The position numbers and the translations under genes were made by a program. The notes beneath the pieces were generated by a model. It saw nothing but the letters and a program-made list of their open reading frames with translations, searched no databases and was not told where the DNA came from. Of a stretch of DNA of 36,639 nucleotides, positions 4,453 to 29,724 are shown piece by piece (the first letter of the stretch is position 1; every line of letters begins with the position of its first letter). Source of the stretch: Candidatus Woesearchaeota archaeon (GTDB taxonomy: Archaea > Nanobdellota > Nanobdellia > Woesearchaeales > GW2011-AR9); NCBI GenBank assembly GCA_016185725.1, contig JACPNA010000050.1, positions 1-36,639 on the forward strand, read 5' to 3'.

Positions 4453-4947
4453 ATGAATATGGAAGATTTCCACGATAAGGAGGAACGAGTGCTGACCTCA
4501 TTAAAGAAATCACGAATGGCTTTTCTGGTGGAATATGTTTGCGCGTTATTTTTAGGTTTTTTGTTGTTGATGCTCTTCTGGAATAAAATTATTATTCCGG
4601 GTTGGATGTTTAGGGGGGTGATAGTGCTTATTGTAGGGATTGTGGTATTTGCGGAAATTTCCAGAAGGTATACACGATATGTGATAACGCCAAGTAAAAT
4701 GGTAATCATTAAAGGGTTGATTAATGAATATAGAAAGAATATCTATTTCCACCCATTGGCGTATGTTCCTGATTTTGAAGTCAGACAGAGTTTTGGACAA
4801 AGGATGTTGGGTTATGGGACGGTTTCTTTAAGCGGTTCGCAAGGTTATGATTTTTTGATTGAGGATGTTAATAATCCTAATGAAGTTTTGAAGGTTATTG
4901 AAGATTTAGTTAATGCGAGCAAAGATGTAGATAAAAGAAAAAAATAA
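4453..4947 (+). CDS. Membrane protein with bacterial-type PH (bPH) domain
   Basis: 164 residues. A short cytosolic N terminus is followed by two transmembrane helices (about residues 22-43 and 53-68), then a domain beginning RYTRYVITPSKMVI and continuing to VSLSGSQGYDFLI, the pattern of the YdbS/YdbT-like bPH_2 (DUF304) family. A charged tail ends the protein. These proteins are membrane-anchored PH folds of unknown ligand. Two ATGs are possible; the one at 4459 lies 27 bases from the TATA box and fits a leaderless mRNA better than the one at 4453. Convergent with the M15 gene, 6 bases apart. Confidence 0.8.
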   Translation: MNMEDFHDKEERVLTSLKKSRMAFLVEYVCALFLGFLLLMLFWNKIIIPGWMFRGVIVLIVGIVVFAEISRRYTRYVITPSKMVIIKGLINEYRKNIYFHPLAYVPDFEVRQSFGQRMLGYGTVSLSGSQGYDFLIEDVNNPNEVLKVIEDLVNASKDVDKRKK

Positions 4948-4953
4948 ATTTTT

Positions 4954-6046
4954 TTATTTAGAATTGGAATATGGTTCAATATTCCCATTGCCTTTAAAGT
5001 CGCCAAGATTACCTTGCCAGTCAAAATGCATGTAATCTTTTGCATCGGAAAAATCACCACCCCAGCGAAAGTCGTTAGCTTTGAATATTTGAATTATTTC
5101 TTCGGGCAGGTCATAATATTTGCCGTTATATTTTTTACATTCTACTTCGATGCCTTCTTTTGTTTTGTAATAATTGGTGCCATCTGGACGGACTAAACAG
5201 AAGGGATTGGTAGAAGGATTGATGTCAATAGCTAAACCATAACTATGTTTACTGCGTTGTACTATGCCTTTATTATCTAAACAAGTAGTTTTATCTACAA
5301 TATTAACTTTAGGAGAATTGACACAGCGCCAGGTATAAGGCGTGCCTAATTTTAGTTTATAATTTAGATTTTCGGTTTTGATCTCTTGGTCAATTTTTTT
5401 TAGTAAGGGAATGATTACTTTATTTACTTTGATATTATTGCCTTGAAAGGTTAATGAGCCTATTTTAGAATCAGCTGTTTGTTCGGAGGTGGATAAAACT
5501 TGGGGAAAGCATTTACTGGTGCCGGAATATTTAGGAAGAGAAGGGGAGATTAATTGAGCTTGATGCGGTGGTTCATAAACTTCGGCAAAGATTTTCCATT
5601 GTGCTGGCGAAATTTGTGTGTCCAATATTTGGTTAATGTTATTACCTACGTGAGTGCTTATTTTAAAAGCCCAGACTTCATCAATCTCTTTACAGGTTTG
5701 AGAATTAAGACAAGTATAAATAGATGGTTTATCTGGAAGTGATTTTGTGGCGGTATCAAGTCAAAGAAAACCGACCACCACCAGTCAATAGACTGTGGTG
5801 GTCGGTTTTCTGACCATGCTTTTTCCACTTTAAGTGTTAGTGGATGTGTACCACCAGTGAAACACACTGGTGGAAAAAGCATATTTTAGCGGCGCTACTT
5901 TCTCTTGAGGGTGTTATCTGCGGAGTAACTTCTTCCATTGCGGTGATAGGTTCTTCTTCAGGATGTTCTTCTTCTAGAGCGGAGGAGAAGAGGGATAAAG
6001 TTATTATTAAAATTAAAAAGATAAAAAATAGATGATTTAATTTCAT
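4954..6046 (-). pseudogene. Secreted M15 (VanY/D-Ala-D-Ala-type) peptidase, split by a repeat
   Basis: The 5' part (6046 to about 5889) encodes a signal peptide and an acidic linker. The 3' part (from 5757) encodes a Cys-containing module (LNSQTCKEIDEVWA) and an M15 domain with the zinc/catalytic motifs SKHSYGLAIDIN (H-x6-D) and DYMHFDW. Between them lies a 130-bp element that brings stop codons into both frames. Deleting exactly 5759-5888 joins the frames into one 320-codon gene, so this was a signal-bearing peptidase that has been interrupted. M15 enzymes cleave D-Ala or L-Ala-D-Glu bonds of murein stem peptides. As it stands, the catalytic part could only be made from an internal codon such as TTG at 5625 and would lack export. 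It is the last gene of the 15931-4954 operon, 12 bases after the lysozyme-like gene. Confidence 0.85.
5759..5888 (+). mobile_element. Palindromic element, copy A (130 bp, short form)
   Basis: Runs from (A)GTCAAAGAAAACCG to GCATATTTTA. The left half folds as a long hairpin (AAAACCGACCACCAC with its complement, loop around CAGTCAATAGACT). The right half folds as ATGCTTTTTCCAC with GTGGAAAAAGCAT enclosing CCACCAGTG/CACTGGTGG. It splits the M15 gene, and its removal restores the frame with no target duplication. Confidence 0.85.
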
Positions 6047-6058
6047 TTTTGTTAAGAA

Positions 6059-7498
6059 TTATTTGTTCTTTTGAATTTCGTAACATTTAAGGAATTGATT
6101 AGTTAAATCATTATTATTTTTATAGGGTTGACCGTAGTAACTTTTTCCACCTTTGGAACTGCTCGGCAGAGATGCCCAAGTAGGTGCTAATCTATCCCAA
6201 AGAGGAATAAAATCTTTGGAAGAAATAGCATTTTTTATATCACTTTCAGAAACTCCTTTTTCTGTTATTAATGAAAGACCGGCTTTGTCTTGCGCTTCTT
6301 TGCCAAAATTAGGAAATAATCCTTTTTTCTTTAAATTATTATAGGTGGTACAGGTAAATTGATATCTACCAGAGGCACTGGGATTTAATTTTTGTTTTTC
6401 ACAAGGATGAACACTTAAATCTTCAAATCTTTTTCCACCATACAGTACATTATAATCTCCACCCTCAGCCCAGGCAATTGTATCGAGTAAGGCATTGTAT
6501 TCAGGACTGCCAACGTTAGCAATACCACAATAACTAATTTTAGTTGTAGAAGCAACATAAGTATCGACGGTGGCTTGCACTGATTTTGGTTCGGTGTATA
6601 ATGTTGTATAAGGTACCCAGCCGCCAGGAACGGCATAGACTTTATCACTTAAATCCGGATTGACATATGCACTGATACGAGAAGCCCAAGCTTCGTCAAT
6701 TTCTTTACATTGTTGAGAGTTGAGACAAAGCGGTTGAGTAATTTTTGTAGTAGTTGAAGGGGTTGAGGAGATGGTAGAAATTGATACGGCAGCAGCGGGA
6801 GTTGCAGAAGCAGTTCCTCGCAAGGCAGCGGTGTAGATATCACCCATTATACCGTATTTCAATCCTGGACTTATTTCGTCGTATACTTTTTGGGCCCATT
6901 GTGTTGGACGGGTATTATCACTAAAATGTATTTCATCTTTATTTAGTTTTACTTTATCCCGTGAATCTATTAATATACAATTATTACTAAGTCCTTTAAT
7001 TATAGCTTCATAACGTTGATCACGTTGAGCTGCTTCAGTTGGATCATTTTTACCGGGCGGACCAATCCAATAACATTTAATGTTTTGATCAATTATGATT
7101 TTCACTAAAGAAGCCACATTTTTATCATAATTTGAAGGTGTTTTTCCAGCAGGATTACCTCCCATAGTAATTATAACGATCGTCGGTTGGAAATCAGAAA
7201 TTAAATCGGCAAGTTTTGGTGTTTTAGACAATGTTGATGTTTTTCCTGTTTCAGTGATATATAAAGAGCCACAACTATCAGCCTGGTTATTAAACCACCA
7301 GGAAGGTGAAGCACCACACATAGCATAATGGCGAACAGTATTATCTTTACTAAGCAATTTATTGATTTCTGTGCCATAAGTGCCAACACTATGAGAATCA
7401 CCAATAAATAAAATCTTTTCTGCAAGTGCTGAGGAGGATAAAAGTAGAATAAATATTAAAATGAAAATTCTTTTTGTTAATTGGCGATTAAATTTCAT
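6059..7498 (-). CDS. Secreted SGNH hydrolase fused to a lambda-endolysin-like (GH104) lytic transglycosylase
   Basis: 479 residues. Residues 1-26 are a signal peptide. An SGNH esterase domain (about 28-215) shows block I GDSHSVG (Ser35), block III GGN (Asn115) and block V D-x2-H (Asp188, His191). A Ser/Thr/Ala/Pro linker (about 222-255) leads to a Cys module (LCLNSQQCKEIDEAW, about 257-320) shared with the next gene. The C-terminal domain (about 330-475) follows phage lambda R closely in motif order: LLDTIAWAEGGD (catalytic Glu345), YGGKRFEDLSVHP, LNPSASGRYQF, WASLP and YGQ. GH104 enzymes cleave the MurNAc-GlcNAc bond of bacterial murein. An esterase that removes O-acetyl groups, which block such enzymes, would fit the fusion, but that is inference. 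It sits between a pilin-like gene (11 bases) and the M15 peptidase gene (12 bases). Confidence 0.88.
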   Translation of the reverse strand: MKFNRQLTKRIFILIFILLLSSSALAEKILFIGDSHSVGTYGTEINKLLSKDNTVRHYAMCGASPSWWFNNQADSCGSLYITETGKTSTLSKTPKLADLISDFQPTIVIITMGGNPAGKTPSNYDKNVASLVKIIIDQNIKCYWIGPPGKNDPTEAAQRDQRYEAIIKGLSNNCILIDSRDKVKLNKDEIHFSDNTRPTQWAQKVYDEISPGLKYGIMGDIYTAALRGTASATPAAAVSISTISSTPSTTTKITQPLCLNSQQCKEIDEAWASRISAYVNPDLSDKVYAVPGGWVPYTTLYTEPKSVQATVDTYVASTTKISYCGIANVGSPEYNALLDTIAWAEGGDYNVLYGGKRFEDLSVHPCEKQKLNPSASGRYQFTCTTYNNLKKKGLFPNFGKEAQDKAGLSLITEKGVSESDIKNAISSKDFIPLWDRLAPTWASLPSSSKGGKSYYGQPYKNNNDLTNQFLKCYEIQKNK

Positions 7499-7509
7499 TA
7501 TTCATCGAT

Positions 7510-8061
7510 TTATTTTACTATGAATGTTTTGGTGTACGTTACTTGTTTTATTAAATAGGGATTTTCTAAGATTAAGTCTAAACTATAAGTTCCGGGTTGT
7601 AAACCAAAGCCAAGAGTGAAGTAGTCTTTGAATACTAGAGATTCTTTGTTTTTATTTGATTCGGTGTCATAATCAAAATTGTTTTCAGTATTAGCATCAA
7701 GAATAATTTGACCAGATGGGGAAGTAATACGATAATTTTCTACTATCTTTACTACTCCGTTAGATGTTGTTGATTCGACAACGAAACGGAAATGGACTTC
7801 TTCACCTCTTACGAAAGTTTGTTTTGGTTCAAGGCATTGATATTGTTCGTCAACGTATTGACAGAATTGAAATTCTTTAATAGATAAAGTTCCTTCACGG
7901 GCGAAGGGGATAAATTCAGTGTTTAAGATAGGCTGCGGTGAAGTGTCGGCTTTAACAGTTACAACACCTTTCTGTACCAAGAAAAGAATGACTGCACTGG
8001 TAAGAACTACGGCTACTAAGATCAAAAGGAATTCTATGATGGTTGAGGCTTTTTTGTTCAT
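7510..8061 (-). CDS. Pilin-like secreted protein with class III-type N terminus
   Basis: 183 residues from the ATG at 8061. It begins MNKKASTIIEFLLILVAVV, a short basic leader followed directly by a hydrophobic helix with Glu, as in archaeal class III (prepilin-peptidase-processed) signal peptides. The exterior domain has three Cys and a beta-rich, Ig-like character with a conserved-looking end (QPGTYSLDLILENP). The start was chosen because the ATG lies two bases after the stop of the 1970-residue gene (TAA-AA-ATG) and places the hydrophobic helix at the N terminus; an upstream in-frame start at 8130 would bury it. It could be a minor pilin or an anchor for the neighbouring enzymes. Confidence 0.75.
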   Translation of the reverse strand: MNKKASTIIEFLLILVAVVLTSAVILFLVQKGVVTVKADTSPQPILNTEFIPFAREGTLSIKEFQFCQYVDEQYQCLEPKQTFVRGEEVHFRFVVESTTSNGVVKIVENYRITSPSGQIILDANTENNFDYDTESNKNKESLVFKDYFTLGFGLQPGTYSLDLILENPYLIKQVTYTKTFIVK

Positions 8062-8063
8062 TT

Positions 8064-11000
8064 TTATTCTATGAATATTGTTTGTTCTATTTCTTCTGTG
8101 GGTGGACAACATAATTGACCCGATGGACATTGATATTTTGATTGATATTGAGAGGAATCAAAACAAAAGCTATTATATTGAAATTTTCCACTATCATCTT
8201 TAGCAATCTTATCAGCTAAAACTGGAGTTTGACAAGTATATTGATTCCACTTTGCGGGAGGAGTGTTTTGATCAGTATAATCTGAAGGAGGAACGGTAAA
8301 AATAAATTTGGCAGAAGGATCGCCACATTTTTTTCCTAGAGTAGAAGTTGAAGGAGTTCCGGCTTTAGGTTCGCAGCATTTTTGCGTTCCAGGACAGCCG
8401 TTTTGCAGGTTATATTGATTAGCAATAGTTTTCGTAGAGTAATCTGAAGCATCATAGCATATTGAACTTGTGTCCGGCTCACGACAGACATATTTATTCC
8501 AGTTAGCAGGTTCGATAAAATCTTCTACTATATGTGTAGATCCACACGTTGTTCCTTTACCAGTTCCTAATGAGGTTGAAGATATTGGTGTAATGCCCTC
8601 ACACTTTATTTTATTATTTATCTGCGCTAGATATTGGTAAATCTTTTGATATTCTGCGGTATTGGTTATTTTTTCAGGATATGGTTCACGAATTTCTCCG
8701 GTAACGTATTTATTATTAAAAAATATATTTAAGTAATTGCAAATGGGTTGTTTGTATTGTGTTGTCCATTCATATTGACCTTGCATGATGTAACAAGCGA
8801 TGGCATAGTATAATGCGTTAGCATCGGCGATGTCATTCGCACGGCGGTTGATGAGTTGTTGAGCTTCGCCTAACACATAACCGCAATTGCCGAGCATAAA
8901 TTCGGAATGGAATTTGCTGGTTATTTTAGAGGCAAATGGTTCTAATTGTAAAGTAATAGTCTGGGTATGTTTATTTTTACCGTAAGCAGGAGATTTTACG
9001 GGAATGTAGGCATTGAAACAATCGCCAGAAGCGTCTGGTTGTAATAGTTCGTTAGTTATTGTAATTGACTTAACTCCCTGAACTTGTGAGGATGCAGGAA
9101 CGATTTCATAAGTACATGCTTTTTTAGGATTATTTTGCGGAAGTTTTGGTGAGCCAATTAAGTTGTAAACAGTAAATCCTTCGAATTGGAAACGGACCGT
9201 AGATAATTCTCCGGTTGTAAGAAATGGATTGCCGTTAGATGTCAAGATTTGATTGGTAACTTGGAAGGGAGGCATTGCGGTAACACCGCTAGGTAAAGTT
9301 ATTTTATATTTACCTTCAGAATCCAATTCATAACTGAAGGGATATTTATTTTTGGTCTGCACTCCAGCAGGAGAATTTTCATAGAGGATATTATTACTAC
9401 AACCAGGATCACTTTCAGAAGAAAGTCTAACGGAATTCTCTCCAGAGAATAGGGAAGGTGTAACTGTACCGAGATTAAGTGGAATGGTGAGAGGACCGCT
9501 TAATTCGGGTAAAGGACGAGGAGTTAATTGACTAAATGTATCTTTTAAGCCAGCAATAGTTGTTTTTAAACAATATTTTTTACCATCAGTCATTAAATGA
9601 TTATTGACACGGATAGGACGATCTTTGATAAATAAATTAGGTGTATTACAATCAGACCAAGCTTTAGTTGTTTCGTCCCAACAACTCAGGTAAGGGTCTT
9701 CAAAATAAGCACCGCCGCCGCCAAACAAGGCTAAGACTTCTGGACATAAGAAGCGACCAGTCAGCGGTTCAACCTGACAAGATAATTGCTGTTCGGGAGA
9801 GACGTCAGTAATAGGGAAATAAAATTTGCCGTCACGATACCCTTCATCAAAACAAGTTTCGGCTTTTTCATAGGGATCTAATTTTATGTCGACGACAACA
9901 TGATCGTAGCGATAGCTAGAACTTATACGTTGCGGGGCAGGGATTTTCATGTCGACAAAATCGCCGCCTTTAAGATTGAATTTTCGACCGTTGTCGAGGA
10001 ATTTGGTTTTTTCTTGTTCAACAGCACTTTTTTGTGTGGCATGCAGGCAATCACAACCTTGCGGACCACACTCTATTCCTTTATGACCCATGTCTTCTGG
10101 ACCGATACATTTTAAATAAACGTCAGCGCTACGGATACGACAGCCAGGCATTAAGATGGCGCCGATTTTGTAATTGTATACTGCAGTTCCGGCGGTAGGA
10201 TTATACGTTGATAATTCACGCTGCGCAGGTACGACAATAACATCAGTTTTTGTGGAAAAGGAATTGGCGGTGTCCATAATGAAATCCATGCCGATAGGCC
10301 AATCGTAACCAAAGGCAGCCATACAAATGGATTGAGAAACTCCTTGCGATCCTTGAGCAAAGTATTGATTTAATTTTGCATTTTGGTAATCTGATTGTAC
10401 TGTCTTTATGGATGATTGCATGGCTTGAGGAATGGCTGCAAAACCGGATTTGGCAATAACGCCGATGTCTTCAATGGTTGTTCCTTTAAGTTCATCTTGA
10501 AAATTATCTGTACTACAACCATTATTAAAATATGCTAATGATTGATAAATCAAACCACAAACGTGTTGAGAGAATATTGTTTTACAAACACCGACATCTT
10601 GCAAGCCAGTATATTTTGCTTCTTTAATACAATTACTTAAGCCAACTAAAATATTTCTCAACGTTACTAAACGAGCATTTATACCAGTAAGACAAACCGT
10701 TTGGAACGCACCGGTATGTTGAGTATTAGGATTGATTTCGTGATAGGTTTTATTGTCGGAAAACGCATCGAGGATAGAGTTCTGACCAAAGGCTGAAGAA
10801 AAATCACGATTGTTATAATAACGCCATTCGGGATAATAAGTGCCAAAGACACCTTTACTTTCTCTGAATTTTAGTGATTCACGGTAGTCCCAATCTTCAG
10901 CTAGATTGTCAATTTCTTTTTGAGCAGTACGCGCTCCAAGAATTTTAGTGGTTGGTTTACTATCGGTAATACAGACGCATTGTAAGAAACCAGTGGTGCG

Positions 11001-13976
11001 GGAGGCTTCATCCAATCCTTTTGGTTCTCCTTCGGAATCTAAATCAAGGAAACAGTCAGCGGTATAACCAGCAGATTTACGAACGGGACCTTTTTGTTCA
11101 TCACTTTTTATTGGACCATTTTTACCTTGAATAATTATTTTACCAGAAGCATCTAGTTGTTCACGATAGCATCCATATTTGCCGGAAGCAGGAGTAGAAG
11201 CGCCTTCTGGTTTAAAATTATTAGTTGTTCCACCATCTTTATCGGCTTTATATCCCGGTAATTTAGGATTTTTACAGACTGCTTCACAGCTACGATCTTG
11301 ACCGACAATAAAACTTTCTGAACCTTCAGGCTGATATGCAAATAAATCTCCCGAGCCGGCAAATTTTTCTTGTAGTGCTTCAAGAGTTATACCAAATTGT
11401 TCAACTTGATTTAATTTGATGAGAGGAGATTCTTTATTTTGTTGTTTAGAATCGATAACATAAAGTTTATTTTGATATTGATAGCAATCAAAAGAACCAT
11501 TTTTTAAGACTTCTACGGCAATTTGATTTTGATTAGTGCCTTTTTGGATTAAGGTTTGACAATTTTCACGTTTAGTTAAGGGAATGCCTAAACTGGTAAC
11601 CGCACATTGTTGTTGGGCAGAGGCAACTGCGCCGACTTCTTCTTGTGTTTTAGATGCAGTCCAACGAGCAGGAACTTTACGACAAAGGAAACGATCACAG
11701 GAGTAGCGGTAAAGTTGGTCGATTCCAGATTCAATCTGCCAAGCGTTAGCGGTTAACGGGCAGCGTTCATTTAAAGAGCTGGCTTTAAGATTTTTAGGGT
11801 CAATTTTATATTTAATAATAGGATTGTTGGTATTATCAAAATAATTTGATTTGTCAGCTAACACTTGCCATTTTTGGATAGTGCTGTCTAAAAATAGATT
11901 TTGTTGTTCTACTATAGAAGGACATCTGTCTTCCTTTTTTTTAGTAAGATCTTTAGCACCATAGTAGGATTCTACATTAGAGATAAAGAGGCGATACCAT
12001 TTAACAATTGTCTGCACGCCAATAGAGGATAAACATGTTGCACCAGCAATTTTTATAGCAGTTTCTAAATAGGGTTGAATTGTCTCAATTTGTTTAATTG
12101 TGAAATCAATTGATTTTAAACCTTCGTCGGCAATGAAATCGGGAAGCATATTTTTACTGTCTATAGGTATATCCACAAAATAGCCAAGGTCATAACAAGA
12201 AGTTTGAGATTTCATCGGACCAAGATTGCCGTTAGGATCACGTTCTTGATAATCTACACGAATCTTTAAGGGAAACATGATTTGGCGTTTTTTGAACTCG
12301 TTCCAAAAGTCTTCTTTTGTTTCGCTTAATTTTTGCGAGGCGGCAAGATTAGAGGTTACATACCAAGACGTTTTTTCACCATTAGGAATGGTTTTAAGGC
12401 TCGCTGGTAAAATGTTACAACCAATTTTAAAAGAGTTATCTTTGAGCATGCCTTGAGTACAAGCACGTTCGAACTGTACACCTTGAATAAGATAACCAGA
12501 TTCGAGAACATGACCAGTAGCAAGATCAATTTTAGGAGTGCCTTGACCACGATAACTAAAGTTAAAAACAGCAGTAGCAACTTCTCGACCGGAATCAAGC
12601 AATTGCGGATTTAAACGCAACGGAGCCTGAAATTGGGGAATAGATGAAATTTGGAAATCAAAATTAGGAGAGTAACAAGTATTAATGGTAATGGTAGTTT
12701 GCTGGAAACCTTTACGACCTAATTGATCTTCGGCAACTATAAATAGATAATAAGTCCATTGCTGCTGCTGTTCGGCTTGTTCTAAAGGAAAGATGGAAAT
12801 TTGTTCCATACCCGCAGGAACTAATTTGAAATTAGGATTGATTTGTTTGAAAGGTTCGCTATCAAAGTTAATGTCTTTAAATGTAAATTCGCCTTTACTA
12901 TCAGAAGTTGTTTCCGCCCACGCTTTATCAAACTTAGGAGTGTATTGGAAACCAACTTGACGGTATAAAAAGAAGTATAATTTGGTGTTAGGTTTAGTTT
13001 TACCGCTAATAGAAGACTCAGCACGGCCTTGATAATAACTATTGCCTTTTTCTAAATTGAAAGTTACAACAGGTGCTTGGACATCAGCAGTCATAGTAAA
13101 TTCTTTGGTAATAACAAAGCCGGAAGTATCTTGGACGGTAATGACAATATTATTTTTTCCTTCTTGTAAATTAATAAGATGAGATATTTTTTGGCCTTGG
13201 CCTTTGGCTTGAGATTTATTGTTGACAAAAATTTCGTAAGTGCTATTTTTAGTGATAGTACCATTAATTGGGAAACTATTGCTGTCAGTAATAGTAGGTA
13301 ATGCGGTTAAATTAAGTATAGGGAGATTATTGTCGGAATAAATGGCGCCAGTCCAGACAGCTTTGTTGTCAGCGGTATCAAGAGCTTCTATTTTTAGATA
13401 ATTTTGTTTATTTGGCTCTAGAAAAATATCGGGAAAGATAAAATGAGATAAGGATGCAGAGACGTTATTTTTGATTTCCTGATGGGGAGCAGTGATAGTT
13501 GATTTAGAGATGTTGTTAACAAATAAAGTTAATTTTGTTTTGGGTTCGGTTGTGCCATTAAGGGATACTTTAGTTCCGGCTATGGAAGAGGGAGCAGAGA
13601 CTTGTAAGGGAGGAGGATTAGTGTCAGGAGTAATGGTTTGGAAAGTATAGAAAGAACCATTATTGTCAGAAATTTTGGAATTACTTTCAACTTGGTAATA
13701 ATATGTTGTTTTAGGAGTTAAATCCTCAAGAGTGAATTGATGGGAGGTGATAGGATTAGCATCGCCTATTGTTTGCAAGGAAGATTTATTTGCGCCGTAA
13801 TGTAAAAAGCTATCAGATGGTTCGTCAGTATTCCAAGAAACAGTGGCAGAAGTTTCAGTTATATCTGTAGATTGCACGGAGGATATTTCTAAAGCGCTTA
13901 CGAAGGTTAAATTAACTAAGAGGGAGATAATTAGGATTGATAATAATTTATTGATGGGGGTTATTTTTGATTTCAT
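8064..13976 (-). CDS. 1970-residue secreted multidomain protein (FN3, Ig-like, Cys-rich repeats)
   Basis: A signal peptide (about 1-28) is followed by a fibronectin type III domain (about 30-115, with TSATVSWNTDEPS and TTYYYQVES) and several bacterial Ig-like segments with the NGTTEPKTKLTLFVN pattern (about 125-310). The long middle part is rich in Cys and aromatic residues and has no family I recognise. The last 130 or so residues hold two copies of a Cys motif ending CPGTQKCCEP and CPSGQLCCPP. The many paired Cys point to an extracellular, disulfide-bonded protein. The start overlaps the stop of the upstream gene by four bases (ATGA). Its place between two pilin-like genes and ahead of two murein hydrolases suggests a large adhesin or the body of a surface structure. 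Confidence 0.8.
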   Translation of the reverse strand: MKSKITPINKLLSILIISLLVNLTFVSALEISSVQSTDITETSATVSWNTDEPSDSFLHYGANKSSLQTIGDANPITSHQFTLEDLTPKTTYYYQVESNSKISDNNGSFYTFQTITPDTNPPPLQVSAPSSIAGTKVSLNGTTEPKTKLTLFVNNISKSTITAPHQEIKNNVSASLSHFIFPDIFLEPNKQNYLKIEALDTADNKAVWTGAIYSDNNLPILNLTALPTITDSNSFPINGTITKNSTYEIFVNNKSQAKGQGQKISHLINLQEGKNNIVITVQDTSGFVITKEFTMTADVQAPVVTFNLEKGNSYYQGRAESSISGKTKPNTKLYFFLYRQVGFQYTPKFDKAWAETTSDSKGEFTFKDINFDSEPFKQINPNFKLVPAGMEQISIFPLEQAEQQQQWTYYLFIVAEDQLGRKGFQQTTITINTCYSPNFDFQISSIPQFQAPLRLNPQLLDSGREVATAVFNFSYRGQGTPKIDLATGHVLESGYLIQGVQFERACTQGMLKDNSFKIGCNILPASLKTIPNGEKTSWYVTSNLAASQKLSETKEDFWNEFKKRQIMFPLKIRVDYQERDPNGNLGPMKSQTSCYDLGYFVDIPIDSKNMLPDFIADEGLKSIDFTIKQIETIQPYLETAIKIAGATCLSSIGVQTIVKWYRLFISNVESYYGAKDLTKKKEDRCPSIVEQQNLFLDSTIQKWQVLADKSNYFDNTNNPIIKYKIDPKNLKASSLNERCPLTANAWQIESGIDQLYRYSCDRFLCRKVPARWTASKTQEEVGAVASAQQQCAVTSLGIPLTKRENCQTLIQKGTNQNQIAVEVLKNGSFDCYQYQNKLYVIDSKQQNKESPLIKLNQVEQFGITLEALQEKFAGSGDLFAYQPEGSESFIVGQDRSCEAVCKNPKLPGYKADKDGGTTNNFKPEGASTPASGKYGCYREQLDASGKIIIQGKNGPIKSDEQKGPVRKSAGYTADCFLDLDSEGEPKGLDEASRTTGFLQCVCITDSKPTTKILGARTAQKEIDNLAEDWDYRESLKFRESKGVFGTYYPEWRYYNNRDFSSAFGQNSILDAFSDNKTYHEINPNTQHTGAFQTVCLTGINARLVTLRNILVGLSNCIKEAKYTGLQDVGVCKTIFSQHVCGLIYQSLAYFNNGCSTDNFQDELKGTTIEDIGVIAKSGFAAIPQAMQSSIKTVQSDYQNAKLNQYFAQGSQGVSQSICMAAFGYDWPIGMDFIMDTANSFSTKTDVIVVPAQRELSTYNPTAGTAVYNYKIGAILMPGCRIRSADVYLKCIGPEDMGHKGIECGPQGCDCLHATQKSAVEQEKTKFLDNGRKFNLKGGDFVDMKIPAPQRISSSYRYDHVVVDIKLDPYEKAETCFDEGYRDGKFYFPITDVSPEQQLSCQVEPLTGRFLCPEVLALFGGGGAYFEDPYLSCWDETTKAWSDCNTPNLFIKDRPIRVNNHLMTDGKKYCLKTTIAGLKDTFSQLTPRPLPELSGPLTIPLNLGTVTPSLFSGENSVRLSSESDPGCSNNILYENSPAGVQTKNKYPFSYELDSEGKYKITLPSGVTAMPPFQVTNQILTSNGNPFLTTGELSTVRFQFEGFTVYNLIGSPKLPQNNPKKACTYEIVPASSQVQGVKSITITNELLQPDASGDCFNAYIPVKSPAYGKNKHTQTITLQLEPFASKITSKFHSEFMLGNCGYVLGEAQQLINRRANDIADANALYYAIACYIMQGQYEWTTQYKQPICNYLNIFFNNKYVTGEIREPYPEKITNTAEYQKIYQYLAQINNKIKCEGITPISSTSLGTGKGTTCGSTHIVEDFIEPANWNKYVCREPDTSSICYDASDYSTKTIANQYNLQNGCPGTQKCCEPKAGTPSTSTLGKKCGDPSAKFIFTVPPSDYTDQNTPPAKWNQYTCQTPVLADKIAKDDSGKFQYNSFCFDSSQYQSKYQCPSGQLCCPPTEEIEQTIFIE

Positions 13977-15931
13977 TTTATCTCCGGATCAGGTAGAGAG
14001 GTACTTATTTGAGGCAGGGATAACATTAGACCATAAACTACATTCTCATCACTGGAATCGGTAGAAGCGATATGGAAAGTTATCTGGTTAGCTTGAGATA
14101 AATCTGACCAGGGTAAGGTCCATTTGCCTTTATACCCACCAATGAATTTTTCTTGGTCAAAGGCATTGATTTCTAATTCATAGGTGTAATCAGCTTTTGC
14201 AAGCAAAGACAGGGTTTGGAATTCTTGCAGTTCTTTATCCGTAGGAGAATATAACAATGTTGCTTCGTGGAACGGTTGAGTGGTGTTGGATTTAAATATG
14301 CGTAATTTTATAAGAGCGGTTTCTGTTTTGGATAGTTCTTTTGGTGGTCCAATATTTTGTTCTGATTCGTAATTGTGTTTAACTATTTTTAGTTTAGATG
14401 CGGGTAAATGGTATACTGGAATTAAATTTAGCTCTGTTTCTTTATTTGATTCGGTAATGACACGCTGCCAGGATTCTTTATAATCTTGTTTTACACCGCG
14501 TAAAATACCGCCAACACAATAAGGAAAGTTAGTAGTTATTTTAGAAGATGCGGTGTAGGGATTGAACGAAGTTTGACCGAGATCGCATTTGTAACGTAGG
14601 CAAGTATAAGAAATGTTTACTCCGGAAATTTCTTCACGATTGAATACACCTAAATCGTTTTCTATTAATTCGTATGTTTTGACAGTCATGGGAATCCGTT
14701 TGTTAGCACAAAATTCTTCAGAGTCAATAGTCTCAATAGCGAGAGATGGACGAGAAAATATTTCATTACGATTAGGATTGTTCTTTATGATATGAACAGT
14801 GAAGGCAAGATTGAAATTGTAGCCGGTAGTTTCATCACGAATTCTAGCTAAAACAGGATATGATAGATCGTACGTAAATTTCCAGTTTTGCAAGCATAAA
14901 AAGGAAATCTGATCCGTACCACCAAGCATAGAACTTTGTAGTTTTGTTCCGGATAAAGGAGTAACGGCAAAGGTAAAGGGATAGTTTTCTTCATAGTTGA
15001 AATAAACGTTAATTTTGTTGTTGTTACCATTTTCACCAATATCCCAAAGGTAGTGACTTTTATAGTAAGGAAGAGTTTTGGGATATTCAATAATATTGGT
15101 GCCTTTAAGCTGGATTTGGGGGATATTGGTGTGAATTAATTTTTTTAAGGAAGATTGAACTTGGAAAATATCCCAGGTTTTTTTGGTGCAACTTAACTCC
15201 ATGCCGGCAGTGGGAACGTCGGGGTGTTCTAAAGCTAAAAGGTCTTGGGTAATATCTTCAAATTTTAGAGTAGCCATCTCTCGATCAATGATTAAAGCAG
15301 CTAATTCGTGAACTTGTTTTAGTTTTATATCAGATTCAGCTTGATGATCAATAACTTCCGCAATGGTTTCACCGGCTTTGTTTTTTAATTCAATATCCCA
15401 TCTGACGTTAAGGATTACTTTAGCAGCAGTAATTTCGGTGTTTGGTTCAATTTCACTTTTTTCTATAATATCATACGATTCTTGGAATGGTTGTAAATCT
15501 AAAAGACAGGAACGCAAGTTCTGTTTCATATAATTGTCTATTCTTGTTTTGATATCTTGTAAAGAGGGTATTCGTGTTTGTTGACCGTAAGCCCAATAAG
15601 GAACTACGAGGTTAGGAGAAAGACGTAAATTTTGTGAAGCATCATGGGCAATATCAGAAGGAATGTCAATGTAACCACCTTGCAGACCTATTTTGAATAA
15701 AGCTTCTTCACCAATCTGTTCAATGCAGGTGGTGAGGTAGTTTTCTATTTTACCTTTTTCAGTTGGAATTATTTCTTCGGTCTTAAAACGAAATATTTCT
15801 GTTTGGAAAAGCAAGAGTAAAGATATGGCTAACAAAATTATTATTCCTAGAATTATAAAAATAGTTACTTGAGCTTTTTTGTTGCTGAAAATATAGCTAG
15901 TGTTACAGCTATCTACCCTCTTTTTGTTCAT
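13973..15931 (-). CDS. Membrane-anchored surface protein with KKAQVTIF-type N terminus (652 aa)
   Basis: The N terminus has a short charged leader, then NKKAQVTIFIILGIIILLA, the class III-like signal/helix common in secreted DPANN proteins (RGQVTIFIILG type). The remaining 600 residues are predicted to lie outside the cell and are beta-rich with scattered Cys; no enzymatic motif is visible. It is the first gene of a five-gene operon: the TATA box at 15951-15962 is about 25 bases from the ATG, which fits a leaderless start, and the stop overlaps the next start by four bases. Candidate roles are a pilin-like base or a host- or prey-contact protein. Confidence 0.7.
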   Translation of the reverse strand: MNKKRVDSCNTSYIFSNKKAQVTIFIILGIIILLAISLLLLFQTEIFRFKTEEIIPTEKGKIENYLTTCIEQIGEEALFKIGLQGGYIDIPSDIAHDASQNLRLSPNLVVPYWAYGQQTRIPSLQDIKTRIDNYMKQNLRSCLLDLQPFQESYDIIEKSEIEPNTEITAAKVILNVRWDIELKNKAGETIAEVIDHQAESDIKLKQVHELAALIIDREMATLKFEDITQDLLALEHPDVPTAGMELSCTKKTWDIFQVQSSLKKLIHTNIPQIQLKGTNIIEYPKTLPYYKSHYLWDIGENGNNNKINVYFNYEENYPFTFAVTPLSGTKLQSSMLGGTDQISFLCLQNWKFTYDLSYPVLARIRDETTGYNFNLAFTVHIIKNNPNRNEIFSRPSLAIETIDSEEFCANKRIPMTVKTYELIENDLGVFNREEISGVNISYTCLRYKCDLGQTSFNPYTASSKITTNFPYCVGGILRGVKQDYKESWQRVITESNKETELNLIPVYHLPASKLKIVKHNYESEQNIGPPKELSKTETALIKLRIFKSNTTQPFHEATLLYSPTDKELQEFQTLSLLAKADYTYELEINAFDQEKFIGGYKGKWTLPWSDLSQANQITFHIASTDSSDENVVYGLMLSLPQISTSLPDPEIK

Positions 15932-15950: not shown

Positions 15951-15962
15951 GGTTTATAAAGC
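15951..15962 (-). promoter_or_regulatory. TATA box of the surface protein/murein hydrolase operon
   Basis: GCTTTATAAACC on the minus strand, centred about 25 bases before the ATG at 15931. No other strong TATA box was seen between the five genes, which are spaced by 12 bases or less. Confidence 0.6.
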
Positions 15963-16006: not shown

Positions 16007-16816
16007 TTATCCAATGTAACTTGCTTCTTTCTTTTTAGATTGAGCGCCGGCTGCTTGAGTTTGGTTTATTTCGGCAAGCCAATCATGAGTTTTTTTAGCT
16101 ATTTCTTTCTCGACTTCGGAAATTTCACGACTCATTTTTTTTAAATCAATGTTATATTTTAGTTTTGTATCAATTACACGAATTACTTCTTTAGCCCCTT
16201 TAATTCCTAAGTATAGAGGATGGCCAAAAGTTTCGGCCAGGATAGCGACACCATTCATTTTACGTTTTCTACCAAGACCGAGAAGAATACCGGAAACGCC
16301 GACAATCGGACCGACAATGCCAAAAATATCTTTTTCCACCAACATGTTTTTTTGCTGATATTCTTTAAGAATTTTTGAATTATTAGCAGTACAATATACA
16401 CGAGGTTTTTCGGGAATTTGCTGCAAGCCAATGCCTCCTGTGGTGATAATTCCTGTGCATTTAAAATGTTTAGCTATCTTAATTATTTCATCACAAAAAG
16501 AAAAACAGCTTTCTTCATCAATGGGCTGGATATCGCCGACTAAGATTAATAAGTCACGTTTGGTTTTAGAATTAAATTTTTTGTAGTATAATTCTAATTT
16601 AGGCATTTCAATGAGATTTTTCTCGTTGACAAAAACAGAGTGAGGAAATTTATAGGAGAAGAAGGAGTATAATAATTTAGCATTAAGTTCTTCTACTAGA
16701 TAGTCTGCAGCAATCTTACCTACATTACCAATACCGGGAAGTCCTTCAATCAGCAGAGGATTGTGCAAGACGGGCAGAGTTTTACATTCTGGGGTTATTT
16801 CCCAATCCGATTTCAT
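16007..16816 (-). CDS. PAC2-family proteasome assembly chaperone homologue
   Basis: 269 residues. IEGLPGIGNVGKIAADYL near the N terminus, LLILVGDIQP, TGIITTGGIGL and VGPIVGVSGILLGLGR follow the order seen in archaeal PAC2 proteins (PF09754). Members resemble eukaryotic PAC2 and the archaeal PbaA/PbaB group, which are linked to proteasome assembly; the exact function in archaea is less settled. The C terminus is a charged helix followed by a Lys-rich tail. A TATA box (ACTATATAA, 16839-16847 on the minus strand) lies about 27 bases before the ATG, so it is probably leaderless. It is about 75 bases upstream of the surface-protein operon, which has its own promoter. Confidence 0.88.
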   Translation of the reverse strand: MKSDWEITPECKTLPVLHNPLLIEGLPGIGNVGKIAADYLVEELNAKLLYSFFSYKFPHSVFVNEKNLIEMPKLELYYKKFNSKTKRDLLILVGDIQPIDEESCFSFCDEIIKIAKHFKCTGIITTGGIGLQQIPEKPRVYCTANNSKILKEYQQKNMLVEKDIFGIVGPIVGVSGILLGLGRKRKMNGVAILAETFGHPLYLGIKGAKEVIRVIDTKLKYNIDLKKMSREISEVEKEIAKKTHDWLAEINQTQAAGAQSKKKEASYIG

Positions 16817-19181: not shown

Positions 19182-19331
19182 TGTCAAAGAAAACAGCCCA
19201 CCACCAGTCAATAGACTGGTGGCATGCTCGCCTGCGGGCTCGGGTCGGTTTTCTGACCATGCTTTTTCCACTTTAAGTGTTAGTGGATGTGTACCACCAG
19301 TTAAACACACTGGTGGAAAAAGCATATTTTA
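19182..19331 (+). mobile_element. Palindromic element, copy B (150 bp, long form)
   Basis: TGTCAAAGAAAAC...GCATATTTTA. The first hairpin is the long version, with GGTGGCATGCTCGCCTGCGG inserted before the closing arm. Intergenic, just after the ATPase gene. Confidence 0.85.
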
Positions 19332-26254: not shown

Positions 26255-26384
26255 TGTCAAAGAAAACCGACCACCACCAGTCAATAGATTGTGGTGGTCG
26301 GTTTTCTGACCATGCTTTTTCCACTTTAAGTGTTAGTGGATGTGTACCACTAGTGAAACACACTGGTGGAAAAAGCATATTTTA
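26255..26384 (+). mobile_element. Palindromic element, copy C (130 bp, short form)
   Basis: TGTCAAAGAAAACCG...GCATATTTTA, nearly identical to copy A. It lies between the kinase gene and the TATA box of the next gene, ending only 11 bases before it. The long first hairpin ends in CGGTTTT and could also act as a terminator for the kinase gene. Confidence 0.85.
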
Positions 26385-27768: not shown

Positions 27769-28398
27769 ATATTTGCGCATGGAATTTGGAGCGGAATTGG
27801 CGGGAAAGCGGCACAGCTTAGAGGAAGCAAAATTAAGCTGTGGAGAACAGTATTATGGGGAATGTTCCCGGATTTATTTGCGTTTACGTTGTTGTTTGGA
27901 TGGTTAATCTTTAATGCGCTATTTGGAACTGGACAGATAGGGGATTGGGAAAAACATGAACCGGCAGTTAAGGATACTAGTTGGATTACTTTTGTAACTT
28001 CGACGTTATATGAGTTGAGTCATAGCATATCCATTTTTGCAATTGTTTGTCAAAGAAAACCGACCACTACCAGTCAATAGACTGGTGGCATGCTCACCTG
28101 CGGGCTCGGGTCGGTTTTCTGACCATGCTTTTTCCACTTTAAGTGTTAGTGGATGTGTACCACCAGTGAAACACACTGGTGGGAAAAGCATATTTTAGTT
28201 GTTTATGTTATTTTAGGAAGATTTGTTGGGGAAATGTTAGCATGGTTAGGACATATCATTATTGATATTCCGACGCATTCATACAAGTTTTATCCTACGC
28301 CATTCTTATGACCATTTTCTGATTGGAAGGTTGATGGGATTTCTTGGGGCAACAAATGGTTTATGATGGCTAATTATGGTAGATTGTTATTTTTATAG
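27769..28398 (+). pseudogene. Small polytopic membrane protein, broken by a repeat and a nonsense codon
   Basis: The frame begins FAHGIWSGIGGKAAQL, continues GMFPDLFAFTLLFGW and SHSISIFAIV, is cut by the 150-bp element at 28048-28197, and resumes VVYVILGRFVGEMLAW, GHIIIDIPTHS, FYPTPFL-stop-PFSDW, GNKWFMMANYG. Removing the element keeps the frame, giving about 159 codons. The H-x4-D and PTHS region suggests the DUF457-type membrane proteins (putative metal-dependent hydrolases). A TGA at 28309-28311 stands where Trp is expected. The codon at the likely start (27769, seven bases after the previous stop, behind AAGGAGG) is ATA, not ATG. Three lesions make it inactive. Confidence 0.8.
28048..28197 (+). 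mobile_element. Palindromic element, copy D (150 bp, long form)
   Basis: TGTCAAAGAAAACCG...GCATATTTTA inside the membrane-protein pseudogene. The codon before is GTT (28045-28047) and the codon after is GTT (28198-28200) in the same frame, so the insertion ends are defined to the base. Confidence 0.88.
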
Positions 28399-29574: not shown

Positions 29575-29724
29575 TGTCAAAGAAAACCGATCACCACCAG
29601 TCAATAGACTGGTGGCATGCTCGTCTGCGGGCTCGGGTCGGTTTTCTGACCATGCTTTTTCCACTTTAAGTGTTAGTGGATGTGTACCACCAGTGAAACA
29701 CACTGGTGGAAAAAGCATATTTTA
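29575..29724 (+). mobile_element. Palindromic element, copy E (150 bp, long form)
   Basis: TGTCAAAGAAAACCG...GCATATTTTA. Its right end provides the stop codon of the gene at 29722-30501, so that gene may have lost its original C terminus on insertion; its left end is 33 bases from the HIT gene start. Confidence 0.85.

Follow-up and report, generated by a model that had tools for sequence, protein, structure and literature searches.

What is the function of an archaeal operon that joins pilin-like surface proteins to enzymes of the type that cut bacterial murein? The question is raised by a window of 36,639 nucleotides (the whole stretch of DNA analyzed here), which is contig 44 of a Woesearchaeota metagenome-assembled genome (MAG; 1.03 Mb, 97% complete).

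Organization of the operon

The five genes, designated A-E, all lie on the minus strand where an earlier, sequence-only reading of this DNA had placed them. The genes, the promoter and the two flanking genes are as follows.

16007 to 16816, minus strand: PAC2-family gene (PF09754, E = 2.4e-37; synteny), upstream neighbor kept in relatives
15953 to 15960, minus strand: TATA box TTTATAAA, identified from sequence, 29-22 bases upstream of the gene A ATG
13973 to 15931, minus strand: gene A, 652 aa, with the class III (pilin-type) leader KKAQVTIF, a single helix near the N terminus and an ectodomain whose cysteines are conserved
8064 to 13976, minus strand: gene B, encoding a protein of 1970 aa that has a signal and an FN3-type domain at its N terminus and dozens of invariant cysteines
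7510 to 8061, minus strand: gene C, 183 aa, pilin-like leader and helix with Glu at +5, then a Wzt_C-like beta sandwich
6059 to 7498, minus strand: gene D, the first slot gene (479 aa), with an export signal followed by an SGNH domain, the link module and a GH104 domain
4954 to 6046, minus strand: gene E, the second slot gene, which encodes an M15 peptidase and is interrupted (Pfam match and reading-frame analysis)
4453 to 4947, plus strand: bPH_2 membrane protein gene, convergent and downstream of the operon, the same neighbor in many relatives

Genes A and B overlap by 4 bases, and the gaps at the B-C, C-D and D-E junctions are 2, 11 and 12 bases. A TATA box near -30 before gene A was present in 32 of 34 relatives, and the promoter of the A-E operon is therefore very likely real. 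Judged from these sequence features, A-E is one operon under an archaeal TATA promoter, and the short or overlapping junctions together with the conserved TATA box confirm the operon as first proposed. The archaeal source of the DNA was likewise borne out, the relatives being MAGs labeled Woesearchaeota, Nanoarchaeota or ‘archaeon’. A gene for a trypsin-like peptidase was also observed near the operon, at 955-2067 of the window.

The surface proteins A, B and C

Class III leaders have a charged residue at -2, Gly, Ala or Ser at -1, and a cleavage site before the hydrophobic stretch (PMC4371748), and the leaders of A and C follow these rules for archaeal type IV pilins. The leader of A is of the KKAQV/KKGQV type, a motif found in 32/32 aligned rows with Phe or Tyr at +5; in C, Glu occupies +5 in 20 of 33 rows. 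Homologs of A were found in 218 of the 242 genomes of the order. The model of A (pLDDT 83) consists of a helix and a mostly beta ectodomain, and a Foldseek search with it returned only low-TM matches (adhesins and S-layer proteins) and no clear PDB fold, so we make no claim about the fold of A. The N-terminal region of B matched the purple-acid-phosphatase N / FN3 domain of Pfam, and the B profile matched a biofilm-associated surface protein in the PDB (7dm0, E = 6e-7) over profile positions 132-283 only. Of the 49 genomes in the GTDB family, 46 have a match to B, which in a few cases is short and limited to the FN3 domain; the full-length copies are 37-52% identical.

C matched Wzt_C (PF14524) with E = 3.7e-6 and 27.4 bits, under the cut-off of 30.4. 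Its model, which is weak because it was folded from a single sequence without an alignment (pLDDT 60), shows a long helix at the N terminus and then a beta sandwich, and the best PDB matches that Foldseek found with it were Wzt domains (E ~1e-3, TMt up to 0.54). The agreement of the weak Pfam match with the weak structural match makes a glycan-binding role of the C ectodomain possible. The earlier description of C as pilin-like thus holds for the leader and helix but is incomplete for the protein as a whole, since the ectodomain resembles a Wzt_C glycan-binding sandwich. PDB sequence profiles gave no match for A or C, and the NCBIfam scan of A-E gave nothing above the cut-off.

The slot genes D and E

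We refer to the position directly after C as the slot and to its products as cargo. In the window the slot is occupied by D and E, which contain the following elements.

6938 to 7408, minus strand: esterase-like domain of the SGNH/GDSL type in D (PF13472, E = 2.7e-6, short of the Pfam cut-off)
6587 to 6736, minus strand: link module of D (E = 3.8e-18)
6116 to 6508, minus strand: GH104 (lambda lysozyme-type lytic transglycosylase) domain of D with Glu345 (PDB 1am7 and PHROG_90 matches)
5752 to 5887, minus strand: copy of a genome-wide two-hairpin repeat interrupting gene E (repeat search of the genome)
5566 to 5718, minus strand: link module of E (E = 2.1e-18)
5017 to 5256, minus strand: M15_4 (VanY / L-Ala-D-Glu peptidase-like) domain of E (PF13539, E = 5e-19)

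The GH104 domain of D matched phage lambda lysozyme (PDB 1am7) with E = 4e-8, with Glu345 aligned to the catalytic Glu19, and D matched the endolysin family PHROG_90 with E = 5e-24. D has the sequence features of a GH104 lytic transglycosylase and is predicted to cleave murein, an activity that would leave 1,6-anhydro ends. In E, the zinc and catalytic residues H127, D134, D197 and H200 (HxxxxxxD...D..H) aligned to PDB 2vo9, of the Ply500 type; PF13539 was the fitting model, and PF02557 (VanY) had no match across the genome. The proposal of a GH104 enzyme in D and an M15 enzyme in E was upheld by these significant matches and intact active-site residues, both being exported-type enzymes with murein-type folds. 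The Pfam scan of D and E recovered catalytic and esterase domains only, and no known wall-binding domain.

The repeat in gene E consists of two tandem hairpins (TAAAATATGC...TCTTTGAC), is ~130 bp long and has about 40 copies in the genome, in length classes of ~128 and ~148 bp that differ in the second hairpin. Other copies in the window lie at 19183-19330, 26256-26383, 28049-28196 and 29576-29723 (-). No exact match to the repeat core was found in the loci of other genomes or in viral contigs, and the repeat looks like a small non-autonomous mobile element. In E it breaks the reading frame and separates the signal part from the enzyme part, so that E is not an uninterrupted exported gene. The M15 gene of a relative in the same genus (L041) is uninterrupted, suggesting that E was broken by one insertion in the lineage of the window; an assembly error at this place is possible. 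The split M15 gene had been taken as a sign that the system may be decaying or tolerates the loss of this gene in the lineage; decay of the system does not fit a single repeat insertion in the window strain while its congener keeps the whole gene. The window strain thus has an intact first cargo (SGNH-GH104) and an interrupted second one (M15).

Gene order in relatives

The gene order of the operon recurs in about 30 relatives, which places the operon well beyond chance. In nearly all readable loci, the order is PAC2-A-B-C with the slot after C. We found this arrangement in ~40 loci, and beyond the slot there are frequently a convergent bPH gene and fpg; the slot genes mostly overlap C (often by 4 bases) or nearly touch it. 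Exceptions are L059, with an enolase gene before the slot gene, L061, with two small genes in that place, and L072, with an unrelated gene in the slot; in L077 and L056, B is separated and yet C stays with the slot. The surface proteins thus recur with the enzymes in the same order, as the sequence-only reading required, and the enzymes are not found only as isolated prophage genes.

The A-B pair is adjacent throughout the order, and in other families B is followed by a multi-TM protein or by unrelated genes, suggesting that C and the slot are a family-specific addition. The presence of A-B without C or a slot across the order also argues that the ancestral role of A-B was not an attack on murein. 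In L149-L181, the pair is often followed by a multi-TM protein of ~280 aa. In the nearest other family, a secreted protein of 475 aa is encoded three genes after B (L149:9735-11162) and has a weak link-like stretch (E 0.03); it may represent the ancestral state of the slot. Paralogous A operons were observed in other Woesearchaeales families (L182, L183, L184, L185 and L188), with an A-like protein of 700-760 aa, a secreted protein of ~1000-1200 aa, a third protein that is large and variable, and in many cases a multi-TM protein. When these operons were checked for hydrolases, an SLT operon gene (the third protein) was found in L185 only; L188 has an SLT gene near its operon.

Contents of the slot across the family

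Of the 29 relative loci that could be read, 25 encode murein-cleaving domains directly after C, four of the 25 by weak matches (L063, 069, 075 and 076). Among the other four, L072 has the unrelated gene, and the scanned slot genes of L061, L066 and L068 had no murein domain; in the genome of L068 (G015), the third gene after C carries M15 and is outside the count of 25.

SLT: L041, 046, 048, 049, 051, 053, 058, 062, 064, 065
M15_4: L041, 042, 048, 054, 056, 059
GH104: window, L042, 055, 071 (L042 and L055 by homology to D)
Amidase_2: L043, 046, 057
DUF2272: L045, 052
Phage_lysozyme2: L045
M23: L062
M74: L077; weak in L076
GH73: L063, weak
SleB-type: L069, 075, weak

Accessory domains in the slot include SGNH, metallophosphatase, Exo_endo_phos, polysaccharide deacetylase, FGE-sulfatase-like and DUF218. 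All 32 intact slot proteins begin with a hydrophobic signal, and none has a strong TM segment further on. The pairing of GH104 with M15, as described in the sequence-only reading, exists in the window but is one cargo among many; the conserved part is A-B-C with an exchangeable slot. Although the slot makes up ~0.4% of the genome, it holds 8 of the 14 M15_4 genes and 10 of the 38 SLT genes of the family (binomial p ~1e-16 each, an approximate value because relatives are not independent and the SLT total was entered as 36). SLT genes outside the slot are widespread in the order (139/242), and murein enzymes thus have other sources as well.

The link module

A previously undescribed module of ~47 aa, which we call the link module, is present in 32 of 33 listed slot proteins, the exception being that of L077. 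Its position varies, with catalytic domains on either side, and a comparison with Pfam gave nothing above noise. The profile was built by aligning the D and E segments and then iterating on slot proteins, which is partly circular, and the genome-wide search therefore serves as the independent test. In the full ORF sets of the loci, the module occurred only in slot proteins and in two contig-end fragments right after C. Genome-wide, it was found at 39 places in 35 of the 49 family genomes; 35 of these places are inside the operon, and the remaining four are on other contigs in genomes where the contig with the operon is broken. Outside the family, a search of 233 genomes gave one marginal match. 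Our guess is that the module docks the enzyme on a structure formed by A, B and C, and we infer that C is its likeliest partner.

Exchange of cargo between congeners

In one same-genus pair (g14), identities are 67% for A, 76% for B and 84% for C, and the slot proteins share only a link region of 67 aa. In a second pair (g34), A is 78% and B 83% (best stretch) identical, and the slot proteins share only 75 N-terminal residues; C reaches only 35% identity in this pair, so that its constancy does not always match that of A and B. SGNH and the link module are common to the window and its congener, which has SLT in place of GH104. A constant region with exchangeable catalytic domains is the pattern by which polymorphic toxins are recognized, and the slot proteins display it. 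No immunity-like gene recurred after the slot among the loci, where the flanking genes are bPH, fpg, enolase and RelA/SpoT.

Proposed function

The recurring cargo covers nearly all classes of murein cleavage, namely the glycan strand, the amide and the stem peptide. A conserved set of surface genes joined to ever-changing wall enzymes suggests archaea that live on bacteria or feed on them, and we consider that the operon probably encodes a surface apparatus with which this Woesearchaeales family presents or releases murein-cutting enzymes to act on bacteria. With their pilin-type leaders, A and C would be anchored in the membrane or assembled in a filament, and B would be the giant secreted, cysteine-rich protein of a common A-B-C structure that binds the bacterium. 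The slot would supply one or two exported multidomain hydrolases, docked through the link module on this structure, most likely on C, and these would open the bacterial wall locally, allowing epibiotic feeding, predation or entry. The SGNH, phosphoesterase and deacetylase accessories may remove decorations that would otherwise hinder lysis, such as O-acetyl groups or teichoic acids. Esterases beside lytic enzymes fit the removal of such O-acetyl and teichoic decorations in wall chemistry. The rapid change of cargo might track changing bacterial partners or wall chemistries. The stronger version, in which the operon is a dedicated predation or epibiont apparatus (a pilin-type structure with a slot of module-docked hydrolases) and the whole family consists of obligate partners or predators of bacteria, is tentative and falls a little short of an even chance.

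A PBP transpeptidase was found in 1 of 49 family genomes, and its absence from the other 48 argues against self-made murein, in agreement with the premise of the sequence-only reading that archaea do not make murein. The single match (G036:C22, a Woesearchaeota MAG) is on a contig that also has an SLT match, and bacterial contamination is possible.

The enzymes might instead be freely secreted weapons or scavengers, killing competitors or consuming dead murein, with A-B-C as a surface or S-layer-associated structure of general function, linked to them only by the common promoter. Murein hydrolases that archaea secrete and that kill bacteria have been described (PMC12352652), and A-B occurs across the order without a slot. 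We nevertheless regard free secretion as unlikely, because the slot is fixed directly after C across a diverse family, often with 4-base overlaps, C stays with the slot even where B is separated (L077 and L056), and nearly all cargo carries one family-specific module that a free enzyme would not need.

A target in the envelope glycans of the archaeon itself or of an archaeal host, for example during pilus passage, would suit the resemblance of C to a glycan-binding domain and the activity of some hydrolase domains on chitin or other glycans (PMC12352652). We find this improbable: Amidase_2, M15, M23, M74, DUF2272, SLT, GH104 and SleB share little except a murein substrate, the active-site residues are kept, the PBP test gives no indication of own murein synthesis, and envelope housekeeping would not predict such an exchange of cargo. 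Slightly more improbable still is a contact-dependent or pilus-delivered system in which the hydrolases let a further effector or DNA pass into the partner; the pilin-type leaders of A and C and the toxin-like exchange of cargo speak for it, but the genes after the slot include neither a recurrent immunity-like gene nor a recurrent additional effector gene.

That the enzymes are stray phage endolysins or come from bacterial contaminant contigs is very hard to credit, for although phage endolysins typically carry GH104 and M15 domains, the same operon and flanks (PAC2, bPH and fpg) occur in dozens of independent MAGs under an archaeal TATA promoter. Prophage origin was rejected on synteny and because the best phage matches cover only 23-24% of D, in the GH104 domain; phages could be the ultimate source of single catalytic domains.

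DPANN archaea are mostly regarded as symbionts of other archaea. Under the reading that we prefer, of an apparatus directed against bacteria, a family-wide operon of bacterial-wall enzymes points to bacteria as partners of these Woesearchaeales. The type of cargo may hint at which bacterial walls are targeted, the slots are a varied source of wall-cutting enzymes, and metagenomes can be screened for such archaea with the link module as a simple marker.

Comparison with known systems

Polymorphic toxin systems combine a constant delivery part and a constant module with exchangeable catalytic domains. The slot resembles them in all three respects; it differs in being archaeal, in having unrelated genes, in that immunity genes were not seen, and in a cargo that would cut the wall instead of acting in the cytosol. 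The catalytic domains of D and E keep the same active-site residues as phage lambda lysozyme (GH104) and the Ply500-type M15 endolysins, but those are phage lysis genes, whereas D and E are exported multidomain proteins of a chromosomal archaeal operon. With archaeal type IV pilins and bindosome-type proteins (PMC4371748), A (KKGQV/KKAQV) and C share the rules of the processing site in their leaders; they differ in the large ectodomain of A (652 aa) and the Wzt_C-like sandwich of C.

Murein hydrolases of archaea, and murein transglycosylases of Woesearchaeota, were already known (PMC12352652, PMC8204110, PMC9723730, PMC10936187). Our literature search, beyond which lay most subscription papers and all preprints, found no description of the operon, the slot or the link module. 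The GH23 enzymes of Woesearchaeota MAGs (PMC9723730) are also SLT-type enzymes for which bacterial partners were suggested; the passages found in that paper describe them as single proteins, without an operon, an A-B-C core, a slot or a link module. The modular archaeal peptidoglycan hydrolases of Strock et al. 2025 (PMC12352652) are likewise secreted against bacteria, with patchy and shuffled domains, and are prominent in Nanoarchaeota. Inclusion in that survey called for at least one catalytic domain together with at least one known wall-binding domain, and its text does not mention M15, lambda or pilin. By comparison, D and E have no known binding domain and carry instead a new module, within a fixed operon that includes surface proteins.
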